64,000 nt of DNA, taken from positions 1-64,000 of the IMG/VR virus record IMGVR_UViG_3300037882_000456. One strand, 5' to 3'. Numbering within the stretch: position 1 is the stretch's first letter; each line of letters opens with the position of its first letter. Of this stretch, positions 22,031-42,805 are shown piece by piece. Made by a program: the position numbers and the translations under genes. Below the pieces are notes generated by a model. The model worked only from the letters and a program-made list of their open reading frames with translations. It was not told where the DNA came from and ran no database searches. The DNA is from a virus.

Positions 22031-23016
22031 TACGCTGCACCCGACTCGATTGTGATTGCCTTGACGCCGAGGGCAGCGATGTCAGAGTTAAAGTAGATAT
22101 TCTTCATGGCTCCACCAATGGTTAGTTTGATTGCTCCACCACCGCCGTTGTAATCAAGACAGATCATTTGGAATGGGTGGTCAGCCGATACCAAGCCCTT
22201 CGGGGCAGACCTGTTAGATGTCACAATGGAATACCCTGGTGCGGCACCGGTGCAAGTAAGATAAGAAGAGTAGATCGTCTGTGCGCCAGTGATCGCTCCG
22301 TATGGAGTTACGAGTTCTGTATCTCCTGGCGTCGAGGCATTGGCAGTATTGTACTGCGTTGCTGACTCTGGCCCAACAAAGTGATCGCTGAACAGGACTC
22401 TAGGCCCAGGGCCATTGTTGTACACAAGGCCAACGCGGTACATCTTGATCAGATCAAATATCACGCCCGTCTTTGTGGCGAAAACACCTGCATACCTGTT
22501 GTTTCCTGTCATTGAATTGAGCAACTGGCTATACTGAAATGGAGTGCTAAAGTTCAAGTCCATTAACTTCAACCATGTTGCGCCGCTCTTGTAGTGAACT
22601 ACCCAGCCATATTGACCTGGCGACATCTTTATTGTCTGAACGGATCCGCGCGCGAATGGGCATGGAATCTCGGTAACTGACGCAACACCGGGGCCGAGCA
22701 CCGAGGGAGTTGTGCCTGCAAGTTTCAGCGTTAGAAGAGTGTCGCTACCAACATAAGAGATTTCAAACTTCACGCCCGTGGTGAAGTTAAGGCTGTTTGT
22801 GTTTGTAAAGAGGCCAGCACCGTCCTGAATTGCGAACGTGGATTCGACTGTCATTGGGCTAGAGTTGATCACGCTACTTGCGGCTACCATTGCCAAAGTT
22901 CCATTAGCGGAGTTATTGACCACGCCGGTTGCTCCGCTTGTGCCCCACGAACCCGCGATCTCAGTGACGCCTAGGATTCCTGGGACCGAGCCATCAATCA
23001 TAAAGAATGGCTTCAT
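22030..23016 (-). CDS. LamG-like virion protein
   Basis: 328 aa made of two similar beta-sandwich units: residues about 20-190 and 200-320 both have strand patterns such as VKFEISYVGSDTLLTLKLAG and end in a motif binding-like loop. The domain type suggests glycan recognition at the tail. Overlaps the collagen-like gene by 4 bases, which suggests both form one fibre assembly. Confidence 0.6.
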   Translation of the reverse strand: MKPFFMIDGSVPGILGVTEIAGSWGTSGATGVVNNSANGTLAMVAASSVINSSPMTVESTFAIQDGAGLFTNTNSLNFTTGVKFEISYVGSDTLLTLKLAGTTPSVLGPGVASVTEIPCPFARGSVQTIKMSPGQYGWVVHYKSGATWLKLMDLNFSTPFQYSQLLNSMTGNNRYAGVFATKTGVIFDLIKMYRVGLVYNNGPGPRVLFSDHFVGPESATQYNTANASTPGDTELVTPYGAITGAQTIYSSYLTCTGAAPGYSIVTSNRSAPKGLVSADHPFQMICLDYNGGGGAIKLTIGGAMKNIYFNSDIAALGVKAITIESGAA

Positions 23017-24563
23017 GGAGTTGTCCAGTCTAGCCTGAAAGTGACCTTAGTTGGAGCAGTTCCTGTAATCGAGGTTGCGGCGATCTGAATTACGCTGCCT
23101 GCTGTACCTGCATGAGAGACGCTAAATGCCTGATATGTTACACCGGCGGTTACTGTCATCGGTGCTCCAAAGTTTGTTCCATCCTTTACCAACTGGATGT
23201 TAAATGAATCCGAGCCTGCGACTGCGGTGTAAACCACCCTGGTGATTGTGAAAGCATCTGGCATTGGGAGTCTTGCATCATATGTCTTTGACGCTAGCGT
23301 GCCGATGCCGCCGAATTGCGCCGTTACTGCACCGTTAGTGCCGTTGGTTCCAGCAGCGCCATCAGATCCGTCAAGTCCTGGGTCGCCCTGGATACCTTGA
23401 ATACCCTGGATTCCTTGATCACCTTGGATTCCTTGAATGCCCTGAGCGCCGTCGCTGCCATCGAGGCCTGCATCACCCTGAATTCCCTGGATTCCTTGAA
23501 TACCCTGATCGCCTTGATCGCCCTGGGGGCCAGGAACCGTAGAGTCTGCGCCTGGGATGCCCTGAATTCCTTGGATTCCTTGGATTCCTTGATCACCCTC
23601 TGGACCTGGAACTGTAGAGTCTGCGCCGTCAGCGCCATCGACACCTGGAATTCCCTGAATGCCTTGGATTCCCTGGATACCCTGGTCACCTTCTGGTCCC
23701 GGTACGGTCGAGGCAGCGCCAGTCTCACCTTGAATGCCCTGGATTCCCTGAATGCCCTGGATTCCTTGATCTCCGGTGTCACCCTTATCACCTTTGTCAC
23801 CCTTGATTCCCTGGATGCCCTGATCTCCCTGGTTTCCGAGATCGCCCTTTAAGCCCTGAATTCCCTGATTACCCTGGATTCCCTGGATCCCCTGGTCACC
23901 AGTGTCACCCTTAACACCCTGAATGCCTTGATCGCCAGTGTCACCCTTAATGCCCTGAATTCCTTGAATACCCTGAATTCCCTGCTCACCCTGAGGGCCT
24001 CTGATCTGACCAGCGTTCGTCCACTGAGTCCCAGTCCAAACCATACCATCGCCTGCGATGCCGACACCAGACTGAGAAGCAGCAAGGATCCACATATCAC
24101 CTGACTGTGGTGACTCTAGAGCGATTGCAGACCAAGTTGCCGTTCCCTTGACAACAATTCCAGAGCCGTCTTGTCCATCAAGACCATCCACACCGGGCTC
24201 GCCACGGAACGTTCCAACGTCAATCCAAGAAGAACCATCCCAAACCCAAAGGTTATCTCCAACAACATAAGAAACTACGCCGTTTCCAGATGGGTACGCT
24301 GCAATAAGGTCGCCAGAGGTCGGGAATGATCCGCCGATAGTTCCGTAGCCAAGCGTCTTAAGACCATAGGTTCCGTCTGTACGACGGAAAAGAACCTGAT
24401 AAGCGCGGCCACCAGATGTGCTTACATCAGCCAAGTCGTCAAGCGAAATAGTCGCGCCGGTGCTTGTGGTGGGCTGGCCTCCTACTGGGGCCGTTGAAGA
24501 AAACCCTGGAAGGCCTGGGGAAGTTACAATTCCCGATTCTTGGGACTCATCGTATACAGGCAT
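23013..24563 (-). CDS. Collagen-like tail fibre protein
   Basis: 516 aa. Residues about 187-412 are Gly-X-Y triplets (GIQ repeated many times, with GDK, GDT and GPE/GPQ interruptions such as STVPGPEG), expected to form a collagen-type triple helix. The N-terminal part has LDDLADVSTSG and a WxGTQW-type module common in tail fibres; the last 90 residues form a beta-rich C-terminal domain, probably the trimerising tip. The -10 TATAAT ends 6 bases before the ATG, so the mRNA is likely leaderless. Confidence 0.9.
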   Translation of the reverse strand: MPVYDESQESGIVTSPGLPGFSSTAPVGGQPTTSTGATISLDDLADVSTSGGRAYQVLFRRTDGTYGLKTLGYGTIGGSFPTSGDLIAAYPSGNGVVSYVVGDNLWVWDGSSWIDVGTFRGEPGVDGLDGQDGSGIVVKGTATWSAIALESPQSGDMWILAASQSGVGIAGDGMVWTGTQWTNAGQIRGPQGEQGIQGIQGIQGIKGDTGDQGIQGVKGDTGDQGIQGIQGNQGIQGLKGDLGNQGDQGIQGIKGDKGDKGDTGDQGIQGIQGIQGIQGETGAASTVPGPEGDQGIQGIQGIQGIPGVDGADGADSTVPGPEGDQGIQGIQGIQGIPGADSTVPGPQGDQGDQGIQGIQGIQGDAGLDGSDGAQGIQGIQGDQGIQGIQGIQGDPGLDGSDGAAGTNGTNGAVTAQFGGIGTLASKTYDARLPMPDAFTITRVVYTAVAGSDSFNIQLVKDGTNFGAPMTVTAGVTYQAFSVSHAGTAGSVIQIAATSITGTAPTKVTFRLDWTTP

Positions 24564-31338: not shown

Positions 31339-31929
31339 TTGACCATCATTGTCGCCGTCGAACATAAGGACGGCGTAGTAGTTGCCTGCGACAGTCAAGT
31401 TACCGATACGGGAACGTCGTTCTTGATGCATAAGTCGCAGAAGAAGGTCGGCCACCGAGGTCCATACATTATCGGAACGGCAGGTCGTTTGCGTACTGGG
31501 CAAGTCCTATTGAACGCAGACGATCTGCCTGTTCCTGATGAGAACCTAAACGATGACGAACTTAACCGATTTATGATCACGAAGTTCGCGCACGCAGCAC
31601 AGGAAGCCATGAAGGATTCGGGAACCGAGCAGGTTCTTGATCACGAGCGCCTGCTGACTGAATCCGAATTGATCGTCTGTGTACAGGGCCGCTCCTACAT
31701 GATTGGTGAGGATTACTCTGTCATGCGCGCAGGAGACGAGTCGAAGGTAGCCAACGGTATTGCTATTGCTGGCTCTGGGTTCAAGTTTGCTCTTGGAGCC
31801 TACTACGCACTCTCCCTCCGCAATCGAAAGATGGATCCTGTTGAGGTTGCTACGACGATGGTTGAGGCTGCTTTACGCTGGGATCAGTATTGTGGCGGCG
31901 ACATTGAGGTTCACGAACAGCCGAAGTGA
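31339..31929 (+). CDS. HslV/proteasome-beta-like Ntn hydrolase
   Basis: 196 aa. The sequence after the initiator Met is TIIVAVEHKDGVVVACDSQV, which follows the N-terminal nucleophile pattern of HslV and 20S beta subunits: Thr1 once Met is removed, Asp at position 17 from that Thr, and Lys residues at 34/35 (one off the usual Lys33). AGSGFKFALGAYYAL further on matches the family GSG block, and the C-terminus (GGDIEVHE) aligns with the usual last strand. TTG start with GAGAGGAAATGCG. No chaperone ATPase is encoded nearby; it might act alone or with host factors. Confidence 0.8.
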   Translation: MTIIVAVEHKDGVVVACDSQVTDTGTSFLMHKSQKKVGHRGPYIIGTAGRLRTGQVLLNADDLPVPDENLNDDELNRFMITKFAHAAQEAMKDSGTEQVLDHERLLTESELIVCVQGRSYMIGEDYSVMRAGDESKVANGIAIAGSGFKFALGAYYALSLRNRKMDPVEVATTMVEAALRWDQYCGGDIEVHEQPK

Positions 31930-36563: not shown

Positions 36564-36592
36564 TTGACTCTGTCGGTGCCTCATGCTATGGT
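36564..36592 (+). promoter_or_regulatory. Promoter with leaderless start
   Basis: TTGACT (36564-36569), 17-base spacer, TATGGT (36587-36592), then TACACC and ATG 36599. Confidence 0.7.
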
Positions 36593-36598
36593 TACACC

Positions 36599-36751
36599 AT
36601 GAACAACATCGAGAACGTCATCAGGAACATCGAAGCGGCAGACCGTATCGAGCGCGAGTGCGCCGAACGTGTCTCGTCGATCCTCCGTACTGCGGTTGAG
36701 GAACTTCAATCGCTACAGGATCGCATCGACGCTGGTGAGTTCAATGTCTGA
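36599..36751 (+). CDS. Small helical protein
   Basis: 50 aa, wholly helical (NNIENVIRNIEAADRIE), probably a coiled coil. The start is set by the promoter 6 bases upstream; a longer frame from 36485 would read through that promoter. Not recognised. Confidence 0.65.
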   Translation: MNNIENVIRNIEAADRIERECAERVSSILRTAVEELQSLQDRIDAGEFNV

Positions 36752-37267: not shown

Positions 37268-37375
37268 ATGCGCCTCACCCGTAGGGCATATGTGCTCATC
37301 TACGGTACTGCCCTCATGGTGGGCATGTGGTTCCCATGGGAGAGCATGCCCTGGTATGGGCTAGACCTTAGGTAA
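37268..37375 (+). CDS. Very small membrane-type protein
   Basis: 35 aa, one hydrophobic segment (AYVLIYGTALMVGMWFPW). It starts two bases after the previous stop, so it may be translationally coupled. Moderate support only. Confidence 0.45.
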   Translation: MRLTRRAYVLIYGTALMVGMWFPWESMPWYGLDLR

Positions 37376-37425
37376 CAATATCGTTACCTAACCATCGGCG
37401 TGTCGCCTTGACATACCGGCCCTAG

Positions 37426-37443
37426 CGGGCAAGACCTTGCCCG
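37426..37443. repeat. Inverted repeat CGGGCAAG/CTTGCCCG, copy 1
   Basis: CGGGCAAG AC CTTGCCCG. First of 13 related palindromes found only between genes of the plus arm (37.4-50.5 kb). It lies in the 300-base gap 37376-37676, which otherwise holds iteron-like repeats and a promoter. Confidence 0.8.
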
Positions 37444-37489
37444 AGTGTACACGCGTACACTGTCTTAAGAAGGTCACTCAGGGTCACCG

Positions 37490-37559
37490 GAGAATCTGTT
37501 GCTCTGTATAGGGATACTCACCCTATACCGAGTATCTGTTGCTATATATAGGGATTCTC
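37490..37559. repeat. Pair of 30-bp iteron-like repeats (forward)
   Basis: Two 30-bp units, 37490-37519 and 37530-37559, 40 bases apart start to start: GAGAATC...TGTTGCT...TATAGGGAT...CTC. Ends vary in a matched way (GAGAATC/GATACTC, then GAGTATC/GATTCTC), so the inner and outer arms of the pair are complementary. The same unit occurs inverted at 38239-38308. Confidence 0.8.
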
Positions 37560-37641
37560 ACCTTCGCATATGGTCACACAGGGTAGCATCTAGCGTTACA
37601 CAAACGTTACATAAAATGTCCGGTATATGCCCATTCTAGAG

Positions 37642-37670
37642 TTGATTCTGTCAGACCCCCATGCTATGAT
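37642..37670 (+). promoter_or_regulatory. Promoter with TGTCAGACCC element, leaderless start
   Basis: TTGATT (37642-37647), 17-base spacer containing TGTCAGACCC (37649-37658), TATGAT (37665-37670), then CATTCC and ATG 37677. Confidence 0.7.
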
Positions 37671-37676
37671 CATTCC

Positions 37677-37946
37677 ATGATAGAGATTAGCAAGCAAGCA
37701 AGCACCCTAGCGGTGGCCCTCCCCTCATCGTGCGAGATCATGGTGAAGGGCGTTCCTACCCTAGTCCGTATCCACAACGCAAAGCGCGTTGGTCAGATTT
37801 GGGCCTTTGGTATGGACCCCGCCGTGGAAACGGTAGCCATTGTGGACGGCGTTCACTATGGAAAGATCGTCGGGAAGGTCGGCCCCATCGCGCGGTTCGA
37901 TTACCTTGACGTTGTGGAAATGCTCATTCCTGAGGGGGTGATTTGA
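37677..37946 (+). CDS. Unknown protein, likely leaderless mRNA
   Basis: 89 aa, alpha/beta, with CEIMVKGVPTLVRIHNAKRVG and VETVAIVDGVHYGKIVG. ATG lies 6 bases after the -10 and has no ribosome site. Not recognised. Confidence 0.65.
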   Translation: MIEISKQASTLAVALPSSCEIMVKGVPTLVRIHNAKRVGQIWAFGMDPAVETVAIVDGVHYGKIVGKVGPIARFDYLDVVEMLIPEGVI

Positions 37947-37948
37947 TA

Positions 37949-38128
37949 ATGGCAAAGAATATCGCATTCGAATGCGGTGAATGCAATTCCGGCGTCGTCC
38001 TTTGGGACGGTTGGAAAGAATCCATCTTTGATGAGTCGGAAATCGACGAATTCGAAGAAATTGTTTCTGAATTCGGAATTCCGATGGATATCGGAATGTG
38101 TTCACCGTGTGACCTTAGGTACAACTAA
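37949..38128 (+). CDS. Small zinc-binding-like acidic protein
   Basis: 59 aa. FECGECNSG at the N-terminus and MCSPCDLRY at the C-terminus make a four-Cys site; the middle is acidic (DESEIDEFEEIVSEFG). GAGGGGGTGAT precedes the ATG at 37949. Confidence 0.65.
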   Translation: MAKNIAFECGECNSGVVLWDGWKESIFDESEIDEFEEIVSEFGIPMDIGMCSPCDLRYN

Positions 38129-38174
38129 GGTTTACCAAATCGTTACCTGAATGTCCTTGACATCTCAGGGCGAG

Positions 38175-38192
38175 CGGGCAAGATCTTACCCG
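38175..38192. repeat. Inverted repeat copy 2, with downstream TGTCAAG box
   Basis: CGGGCAAG AT CTTACCCG, followed by a GC-rich stretch and TGTCAAG at 38205-38211. In the gap 38129-38425, which parallels the gap at 37376-37676. Confidence 0.75.
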
Positions 38193-38238
38193 CGCGGGCG
38201 CGCGTGTCAAGTCTTACGAGTGTCACAGAAAGTCACGG

Positions 38239-38308
38239 GACTTTCCCCTTATATACCAACAGATTCTCGCCTCGTGCCGAGAATCCCCTTATATAGCAAC
38301 AGATTCTC
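38239..38308. repeat. Pair of 30-bp iteron-like repeats (inverted)
   Basis: Units 38239-38268 and 38279-38308, again 40 bases apart, are the reverse complement of the 37.5-kb units (GAGAATCCCCTTATATAGCA... in this orientation). The left unit is degenerate at its outer end. TCACGGGAC lies just before (38233-38241). Confidence 0.8.
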
Positions 38309-38397
38309 GCCATCACTTTCGGTCACTCTCAGTGAGAAATCCCGTTACACAACCGTTACATTAGATGTCCGTTTTGCACCCCTAAAACGGCCTCGAC

Positions 38398-38419
38398 TGT
38401 CAGACCCCTATGGTACGCT
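38398..38419 (+). promoter_or_regulatory. Promoter with TGTCAGACCC element
   Basis: TGTCAGACCC (38398-38407), 6 bases, TACGCT (38414-38419), then TACACT and ATG 38426. No good -35 hexamer is present. Confidence 0.6.
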
Positions 38420-38425
38420 TACACT

Positions 38426-38629
38426 ATGAAAGAGAAGGGAGAAAGCATGATGATCAACAAGACTTACGCGATTGGCGCATGGTCGGCACCTTGCACCGTG
38501 TCCTATGGACACCCTGTAAATGTCACCCGCTATGAGCGCGTGCGCGTCGGTATCAAGAATGATACCTACGTTGCCACTTGTGAATGCGGCGCTACTCAGC
38601 GTCGGTTCTCATACGCAAAGCGTAAGTGA
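38426..38629 (+). CDS. Small Cys-containing protein
   Basis: 67 aa from the leaderless ATG 38426; an internal ATG at 38447 has AAGGGAG upstream and could be the real start. Contains TYVATCECGATQRRFSYAKRK at the C-terminus. Confidence 0.55.
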   Translation: MKEKGESMMINKTYAIGAWSAPCTVSYGHPVNVTRYERVRVGIKNDTYVATCECGATQRRFSYAKRK

Positions 38630-39437: not shown

Positions 39438-39462
39438 GGTTATCCACACCCTGTGGATAACC
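39438..39462. repeat. Inverted pair of DnaA boxes
   Basis: GGTTATCCACA CCC TGTGGATAACC: two perfect TTATCCACA boxes (39440-39448 and 39452-39460) facing each other. As RNA it makes an 11-base-pair stem and could end transcription after 39419. Confidence 0.65.
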
Positions 39463-40185: not shown

Positions 40186-40207
40186 TGTCAGACCCATGTG
40201 CTAGGAT
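40186..40207 (+). promoter_or_regulatory. Promoter with TGTCAGACCC element, leaderless start
   Basis: TGTCAGACCC (40186-40195), 6 bases, TAGGAT (40202-40207), then GTCTCT and ATG 40214. The usual -35 place holds CGGGAA, not TTGACA. Confidence 0.65.
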
Positions 40208-40408: not shown

Positions 40409-40430
40409 TGTCGGACCCCTGTGCTACAAT
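40409..40430 (+). promoter_or_regulatory. Promoter with TGTCGGACCC element
   Basis: TGTCGGACCC (40409-40418), 6 bases, TACAAT (40425-40430). Leader has CAACCAAACGAAAGG before ATG 40460. Confidence 0.65.
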
Positions 40431-42021: not shown

Positions 42022-42043
42022 TGTCGGTCCCCTATGCTAGAAT
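42022..42043 (+). promoter_or_regulatory. Promoter with TGTCGGTCCC element, leaderless start
   Basis: TGTCGGTCCC (42022-42031), 6 bases, TAGAAT (42038-42043), then CATCCC and ATG 42050. Confidence 0.65.
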
Positions 42044-42049
42044 CATCCC

Positions 42050-42805
42050 ATGATGACAACGACGAACACCCTAGGCCTGCGCCGCTCCACCGACCGTAAG
42101 ACCACCCCCTCCGCTAACAAGGCTGGCAAGGTTGCCAATATCGCTAACGCCTTCGGAATGCTCTCAGGGCGCGATTTCTCGTGTCCTGGTCAGACTGCCG
42201 CGTGCGAGGCTGTTTGCTATGCGGGGAAACTCGAACGCATCTTCGGCGGCTTTCGTGCCGTAATGACCGATAACTGGAATGCGCTTAGTAATGCGTCGTA
42301 TTCCGATATGGTCGCGTCCCTTGATGCTATTGTCAAGGATTTCATTGTGGACGCGGATAAGCGGGAATGCGATAAGGTATTCCGCATTCACCACGATGGG
42401 GATTTCTTTAGCCGTGATTACGCGAGCGCGTGGGCTAATGTCGTGAAGCGTAATCCGTCCGTTCATTTCTGGGCCTACACGCGCTCATTCATTCCTGGCT
42501 GTAATGTCGTGGATATCCTTGCGGATATTCCCAATCTCACGCTTTACCTTTCGGTGGACGTCAATAACCTGGAATGGGCTAAGGTTATTACTGCGGAATA
42601 CAATAGCGTCAAGGTCGCAACGCTTACCGATACCGCCGATGAGGGAACGGATATGATGCTTTCATTCCGTGAGCGTAAGGGTGGCGCGTGCCCCGAGGTT
42701 ATGGGCCGTATCGAACTCATTACACCCGAGGGTGGCGCGTGCGTTACTTGTGCGCTTTGTGTATTCGGCAAGGCCGATATCCGTTTCGCTGCGAAGGGAA
42801 AGTAA
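42050..42805 (+). CDS. GP88-family protein
   Basis: 251 aa. Matches the GP88 family of mycobacteriophages and relatives: SCPGQTAACEAVCYAGKLER near residue 45, FRIHHDGDFFSRDYASAW, VHFWAYTRSF, and a late Cys cluster GGACVTCALCVFG. The conserved Cys residues suggest a metal or Fe-S centre. Function is unknown. ATG 6 bases after the -10, no ribosome site. Confidence 0.8.
   Translation: MMTTTNTLGLRRSTDRKTTPSANKAGKVANIANAFGMLSGRDFSCPGQTAACEAVCYAGKLERIFGGFRAVMTDNWNALSNASYSDMVASLDAIVKDFIVDADKRECDKVFRIHHDGDFFSRDYASAWANVVKRNPSVHFWAYTRSFIPGCNVVDILADIPNLTLYLSVDVNNLEWAKVITAEYNSVKVATLTDTADEGTDMMLSFRERKGGACPEVMGRIELITPEGGACVTCALCVFGKADIRFAAKGK

Follow-up and report, generated by a model that had tools for sequence, protein, structure and literature searches.

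Duplicated intergenic regions of an uncultivated phage as probable early promoter/operator regions with PafBC-type promoters

Two intergenic regions that share the same succession of short elements, and that carry pairs of 30-bp repeats in opposite orientation, raise the question of what such a duplicated arrangement does in a phage genome. In the window, i.e. the whole 64,000-nucleotide stretch of the IMG/VR virus record IMGVR_UViG_3300037882_000456 that was analysed, control region A (37376..37676, + strand) lies upstream of an 89-aa ORF (37677-37946), and control region B (38129..38425, + strand), the paralogue of A at +749 bp, lies upstream of a 67-aa ORF (38426-38629). A sequence-only reading of the locus had proposed a replication origin with iterons or a paired regulatory switch. 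Here we argue, with moderate confidence, that A and B are duplicated early promoter/operator regions with PafBC-type DNA-damage promoters, and not an origin.

That the two gaps are paralogous, as had been claimed, is borne out by an exact 749-bp register. Region A and the stretch 749 bp further on are identical at 177 of 301 positions (59%) in a gap-free comparison, and the right flanks of A and B agree at 72 of 117 positions, where shuffled sequences gave a mean of 29.9 and a maximum of 46 (n=2000). Every element listed in the earlier reading is present in both regions, among them CGTTACC (37382 in A, 38141 in B), the CGGGCAAG..CTTGCCCG palindrome (37426, 38175), the GTCAC blocks (37473, 37483 and 37573 in A; 38222, 38232 and 38322 in B), GTTACACAA[A/C]CGTTACAT (37595, 38344), TGTCC (37617, 38366) and TGTCAGACCC (37649, 38398). 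A palindrome, TTAGGTAAC..GTTACCTAA (GTAAC/GTTAC, 37368..37391), marks the left edge of A. A DNA search of annotated phages gave no match, i.e. no direct relative was found; no relative of the two proteins downstream of A and B was found in IMG/VR, and the ORFs adjoining the two regions had no PHROG or Pfam match. Elsewhere in the record, ORF 31339-31929 weakly matches a proteasome subunit family (PF00227, E 3.6e-5), and an HslV-like gene is also annotated in the lake phage DSL-LC01.

The TGTCAGACCC element had been described as a promoter. The element is indeed present, and it turns out to be the first half of TGTCRG-N10-TAnnnT, a promoter class that had been missed. Seven matches to this pattern were observed in the window against 0.83 expected (maximum of 3 in 100 shuffles), six of which cluster on the + strand at 36.5-42.1 kb, either intergenic or directly before an ORF. 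The cluster is headed by TGTCGG-N10-TATGGT at 36571..36592 (leaderless ATG at 36599, GTTAC at -21), followed by the promoter of A (TGTCAG-N10-TATGAT, 37649..37670, ATG at 37677), that of B (TGTCAG-N10-TACGCT, 38398..38419, ATG at 38426), and sites at 40186..40207 (leaderless), 40409..40430 (not leaderless) and 42022..42043 (GTTAC at -44 and -33; leaderless ATG at 42050, belonging to a Gp88 family gene). Five of the six clustered sites, among them A and B, have the ATG exactly 6 nt past the -10 element. Leaderless mRNAs are therefore expected, and TGTCAG of A and B would be located at -28 to -23 if transcription starts at the ATG. When spacers of 4-16 were scanned, the main peak was at 10 in the window and in five other phage loci, L004, L005 and L010-L012, with a lesser second peak at 12 in L011.

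RecA-NDp, a LexA-independent DNA-damage promoter, has the consensus tTGTCRgtg-8 nt-TannnT (PMC5656591), and its motif has been linked to the regulator PafBC (PMC8223512), which is activated by ssDNA, binds sigma A-RNA polymerase and has its motif at -26 (PMC11804915). At A, B and four more sites, the TGTCR core is found together with TAnnnT 10 bp after TGTCRG. The weakly conserved gtg after TGTCR is absent, A and B reading GAC, and we therefore call them RecA-NDp-type rather than proven members. The GAC variant also occurs at actinobacterial chromosomal sites, and the phage sites usually have ACC after TGTCRG, where the published consensus has tg. It is conceivable, though unlikely, that the sites are ordinary sigma-A or extended -10 promoters, or that a phage-encoded activator reads TGTCRG in place of PafBC. 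TG precedes many of the -10 elements, A has a weak -35 element (TTGATT, 17 bp), housekeeping-like TTGACA promoters are also found in the region, and the departure from the published consensus after TGTCRG points the same way. However, the exact 10-bp spacing and the predicted position near -26 match PafBC promoters, and near-identical promoters precede bacterial DNA-metabolism genes, where a phage activator is not expected. A phage-encoded activator is the strongest remaining rival for the promoter.

The PafBC-type reading can be compared with the distribution of the promoter in other genomes. Relatives were found via the Gp88-family gene at 42050 or via the recurring upstream module described below. 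Several uncultivated relatives carry 5-18 promoter copies per record, with almost all of the copies sharing a strand. Forward/reverse matches over whole records were 2/16 in G013, 13/1 in G010, 1/12 in G012, 13/0 in G006, 0/14 in G007 and 0/10 in G005, and 8/1 and 1/5 in two further relatives; the reversed pattern, used as control, gave 0-2 in the six named records and 0-4 across all eight relatives. In 20 comparison phages, comprising cultured phages of Mycobacterium, Streptomyces, Gordonia, Nocardia, Arthrobacter, Microbacterium and Brevibacterium, phages of other phyla and one lake metagenome phage, matches were at background (0-5 per record).

When TGTCRGWCCCC-N3-GSTAGNAT was searched in ~85,000 bacterial and archaeal genomes, ~71 of 80 among the loci listed were from Actinomycetota, as counted from titles, and a start codon was found 4-8 nt past the -10 element at 28 of 80 loci among the matches listed. 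Ten of the genes with such a start codon were scanned, and they included dnaX, DNA polymerase I and six DUF222 genes, of which five also have HNH. A stricter chromosomal promoter pattern gave no match in the genome search. That the ACC variant is also one chromosomal form of promoter before DNA-metabolism genes supports the involvement of a host factor, without being proof of PafBC. A host PafBC is our assumption, as no pafBC/WYL gene was found in the phage records. Saccharothrix genomes (L054, L065, L084, L085) have many TGTCGGACCCC promoters, several of them before near-identical copies of one gene (MEPISVTALSFTEYV...).

What, then, is the role of the 30-bp repeats, which lie between the upstream module and the GTTAC boxes in A and B only? 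Repeats A1 (37490..37519) and A2 (37530..37559) are on the + strand, and B1 (38239..38268) and B2 (38279..38308) on the - strand, inverted with the register kept. The start-to-start spacing is 40 bp in both pairs, and these coordinates and strands confirm the earlier description of repeats 40 bp apart with the second pair inverted. Identity is 26/30 within each pair and 23-27/30 between A and B after inversion. Over the whole 70-bp repeat block, A and B agree at 50/70 positions when one is inverted and at 38/70 in direct orientation (shuffles: mean 17.7, maximum 32), which makes the block the best conserved part once inverted, the flanks being ~62% identical. The remaining elements of A and B keep both their direct orientation and their exact register, so that only the block is inverted in place; template switching between short inverted ends may account for such an inversion. 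A fifth repeat copy is absent from the 71.9-kb record, where the next best site (18/30) is at background level, and the repeat-core pattern had no exact match in IMG/VR.

Matched changes that keep the repeat ends complementary had also been described. At the inner ends they are found in A (GATACTC/GAGTATC) as well as in B (GATTCTC/GAGAATC), but at the outer ends in A only, since copy 1 of B (GACTTTC) breaks the complementarity there. As they amount to a single coupled change, which affects one inner-end base pair, the matched changes are weak evidence by themselves. That the block is inverted and yet best conserved fits a DNA site rather than an RNA, and the repeats are probably orientation-independent protein-binding sites, a role that we read from their layout since they have no relatives. 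L005 has one region with its own repeats, 33 bp apart, in the same place, and L029 has an 11-bp tandem in the corresponding place, suggesting that the position is a changeable operator slot. Repeats of another kind, long 9-bp tandem-repeat runs at 23386-23994, lie inside a 516-aa minus-strand ORF (23013-24563).

Could the repeats act as RNA, by folding in a leader or a small RNA so as to regulate the gene that follows? A(+), B(+) and B(-) do fold better than shuffled sequences (z -3.3, -3.4 and -4.0, respectively), but the block precedes a leaderless promoter, Rfam gave no matching family, and the B block is the reverse complement of that of A, so that a sense-strand RNA is not kept. We regard an RNA element as a very remote prospect. 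The notion of a paired regulatory switch holds insofar as A and B are two paralogous promoter/operator regions. It is highly improbable, though, that the opposed repeat pairs are the crossover sites of an invertible ~700-bp segment carrying promoter A and its genes. The A and B pairs are mutually inverted and each repeat has quasi-palindromic ends, in keeping with inversion, whereas neither a serine recombinase (PF00239) nor a tyrosine integrase (PF00589) was found in the 71.9-kb record, which is possibly a fragment. Since the other elements of A and B are direct and in exact register, inversion of the 70-bp block in place is simpler than a switch.

The paired direct 30-bp repeats and the GTCAC/GTTAC blocks would also suit iterons to which a phage initiator binds, and mycobacterial oriC is a known target of MtrA (PMC6265350). 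Nevertheless, each region has two copies only and not an array of several phased iterons, and their 40-bp spacing corresponds to 3.6-3.8 helical turns, which is off register. The blocks are 41-46% GC without an AT-rich unwinding stretch, the lowest-GC 200-bp windows being non-coding ones at 50.5-51.2 kb instead. Neither a GC-skew extremum at 37-38.4 kb nor a DnaA box inside either gap was found, and no initiator family was recognised among the neighbouring ORFs, of which those without a family could hide an unrecognised initiator. Conservation of the repeats was checked in relatives, and no copy was found. Copy number, spacing, composition, skew, DnaA boxes and protein families thus fail to support the origin proposed earlier, and we consider it improbable. 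The AT-rich non-coding stretch at 50800-51200, with tandem TTATCCACAGT at 51025 and 51036, ranks among the record's windows of lowest GC and is a better origin candidate than A/B. Two perfect DnaA-box-like 9-mers facing each other (TTATCCACA ccc TGTGGATAA) are located at 39440-39460, in a longer palindrome between two genes.

Promoter/operator regions would be expected to hold further regulatory sites, and the GTTAC boxes are candidates. The GTTAC-N6-GTTAC boxes of A (37595..37610, + strand) and B (38344..38359, + strand) have their half-sites at -54 and -43 from TGTCAG, with TGTCC at -32 and GTCAC at -76. GlnR sites are of the form GTnAC-n6-GTnAC (PMC10704036) and MtrA sites are GTnAC-like repeats (PMC5650626, PMC6265350); the GTnAC-n6-GTnAC form of such OmpR-type boxes is found at 37595, 38344 and 41978. 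GTTAC pairs with a spacer of 6 number 5, 3 and 3 in the window, L004 and L005, compared with 2 in all for the other spacers from 1 to 19. In the window, L004, L027 and L029, the half-sites nearest to TGTCRG lie at -21, -32/33, -43/45 and -54/55, while L005 and L031 show exceptions. This phasing gave a Rayleigh p of ~0.004 at a period of 11, with 11.5 fitting equally well, for n=11 promoters of which some are possibly orthologous. L005 likewise has TGTCC at -32 and -21, and L029 has it at -33. We suggest that the boxes are putative MtrA- or GlnR-type sites in approximate helical phase with the promoter; no phage-borne OmpR-type regulator was found in our search. The 115-kb relative L005 has its own paralogous promoter-gap pair (L005:6060-6260 and L005:7280-7480), with TGACTAGTCA-like elements in the GTTAC-box slot.

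Further upstream, A and B carry the palindromes CGGGCAAGACCTTGCCCG (37426..37443) and CGGGCAAGATCTTACCCG (38175..38192). Nine CGGGCAAG-N2-CTTGCCCG palindromes are found in the window between 37426 and 50458 (0.24 expected), and TGTCAAG, TTACGA and TCACGGGAA commonly come after them, ahead of the next promoter; TTACGA..TCACGGGAA is also present in the IMG/VR phages L027-L031. As the palindromes come after stop codons and beside ttcg hairpins, they are more likely candidate terminators than repressor operators, that of A being a probable terminator of the upstream gene. The upstream module of A (37461..37489, + strand) reads TTAAGA-GTCAC-GTCACCGGA, a variant of the recurring TTACGA-N13-TCACGGGAA, and that of B (38209..38239, + strand) reads TTACGA-GTCAC-GTCACGGGA; these variants account for the first two GTCAC blocks of each region. 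The remainder of the module (TGTCAAG-TTACGA-TCACGGGAA) is read as a putative site for a further regulator.

How could these elements work together? Each region would comprise, in order, a hairpin ending the previous gene, the module, the 30-bp pair, the GTNAC boxes, TGTCC and the promoter, and would start a short leaderless mRNA for a small, probably early phage protein. Infection could generate single-stranded DNA, via breakdown of host DNA or via phage replication, and the ssDNA-sensing host PafBC would turn on a battery of phage genes, to which the upstream boxes and the 30-bp repeats could add a second input. We infer the early timing, the PafBC dependence and the identity of the box-binding regulator from sequence. 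There is about an even chance, in our view, that a group of uncultivated actinophages runs an early-gene battery from copies of a PafBC promoter, triggered by ssDNA through the host activator, and that two copies here carry an extra 30-bp pair for a further regulator. Work on PafBC has so far treated it as a regulator of repair in actinobacteria, and our literature search found no paper tying it to phage gene expression. The 10-bp spacing signature would be a marker for such phages, and for their early regions, in metagenomes.

A and B are ordinary in kind, being early promoter regions, and unusual in make-up. Iteron origins of plasmids and phages likewise have short direct repeats in non-coding DNA, but here there are two copies per region and no recognised initiator gene, AT-rich stretch or DnaA box. 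The boxes share with MtrA/GlnR boxes (PMC10704036, PMC5650626, PMC6265350) the GTnAC-n6-GTnAC direct repeats and the 11-bp period, whereas here they are phage-borne and approximately phased with a PafBC-type promoter, their binder being putative. With RecA-NDp/PafBC promoters (PMC5656591, PMC11804915), the sites have in common the TGTCR core, the 10-bp spacing, a weak or absent -35 element and, in Actinobacteria, a location before DNA-metabolism genes, and their predicted position would fit -26. They differ in being carried by phages in dense one-strand batteries (up to 16 per strand in a 40-kb record) before small orphan genes, with ACC after TGTCRG and with extra upstream boxes and repeats; PafBC dependence is here a prediction from the DNA. 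GIL01 also ties phage genes to the host DNA-damage response (PMC4551915), but this temperate phage is repressed by LexA, while here the site is of the activator type and the record yielded no integrase. The CtrA-box phages of Alphaproteobacteria (PMC9437464) similarly concentrate sites of a host global regulator in their promoter regions, making the host state readable; here the host phylum is another one, and the main site is of a DNA-damage activator class, accompanied by GTTAC-N6-GTTAC OmpR-type boxes. If phages do use PafBC as an activator, DNA-damage signalling would be an infection cue, in parallel to CtrA in the alphaproteobacterial phages.
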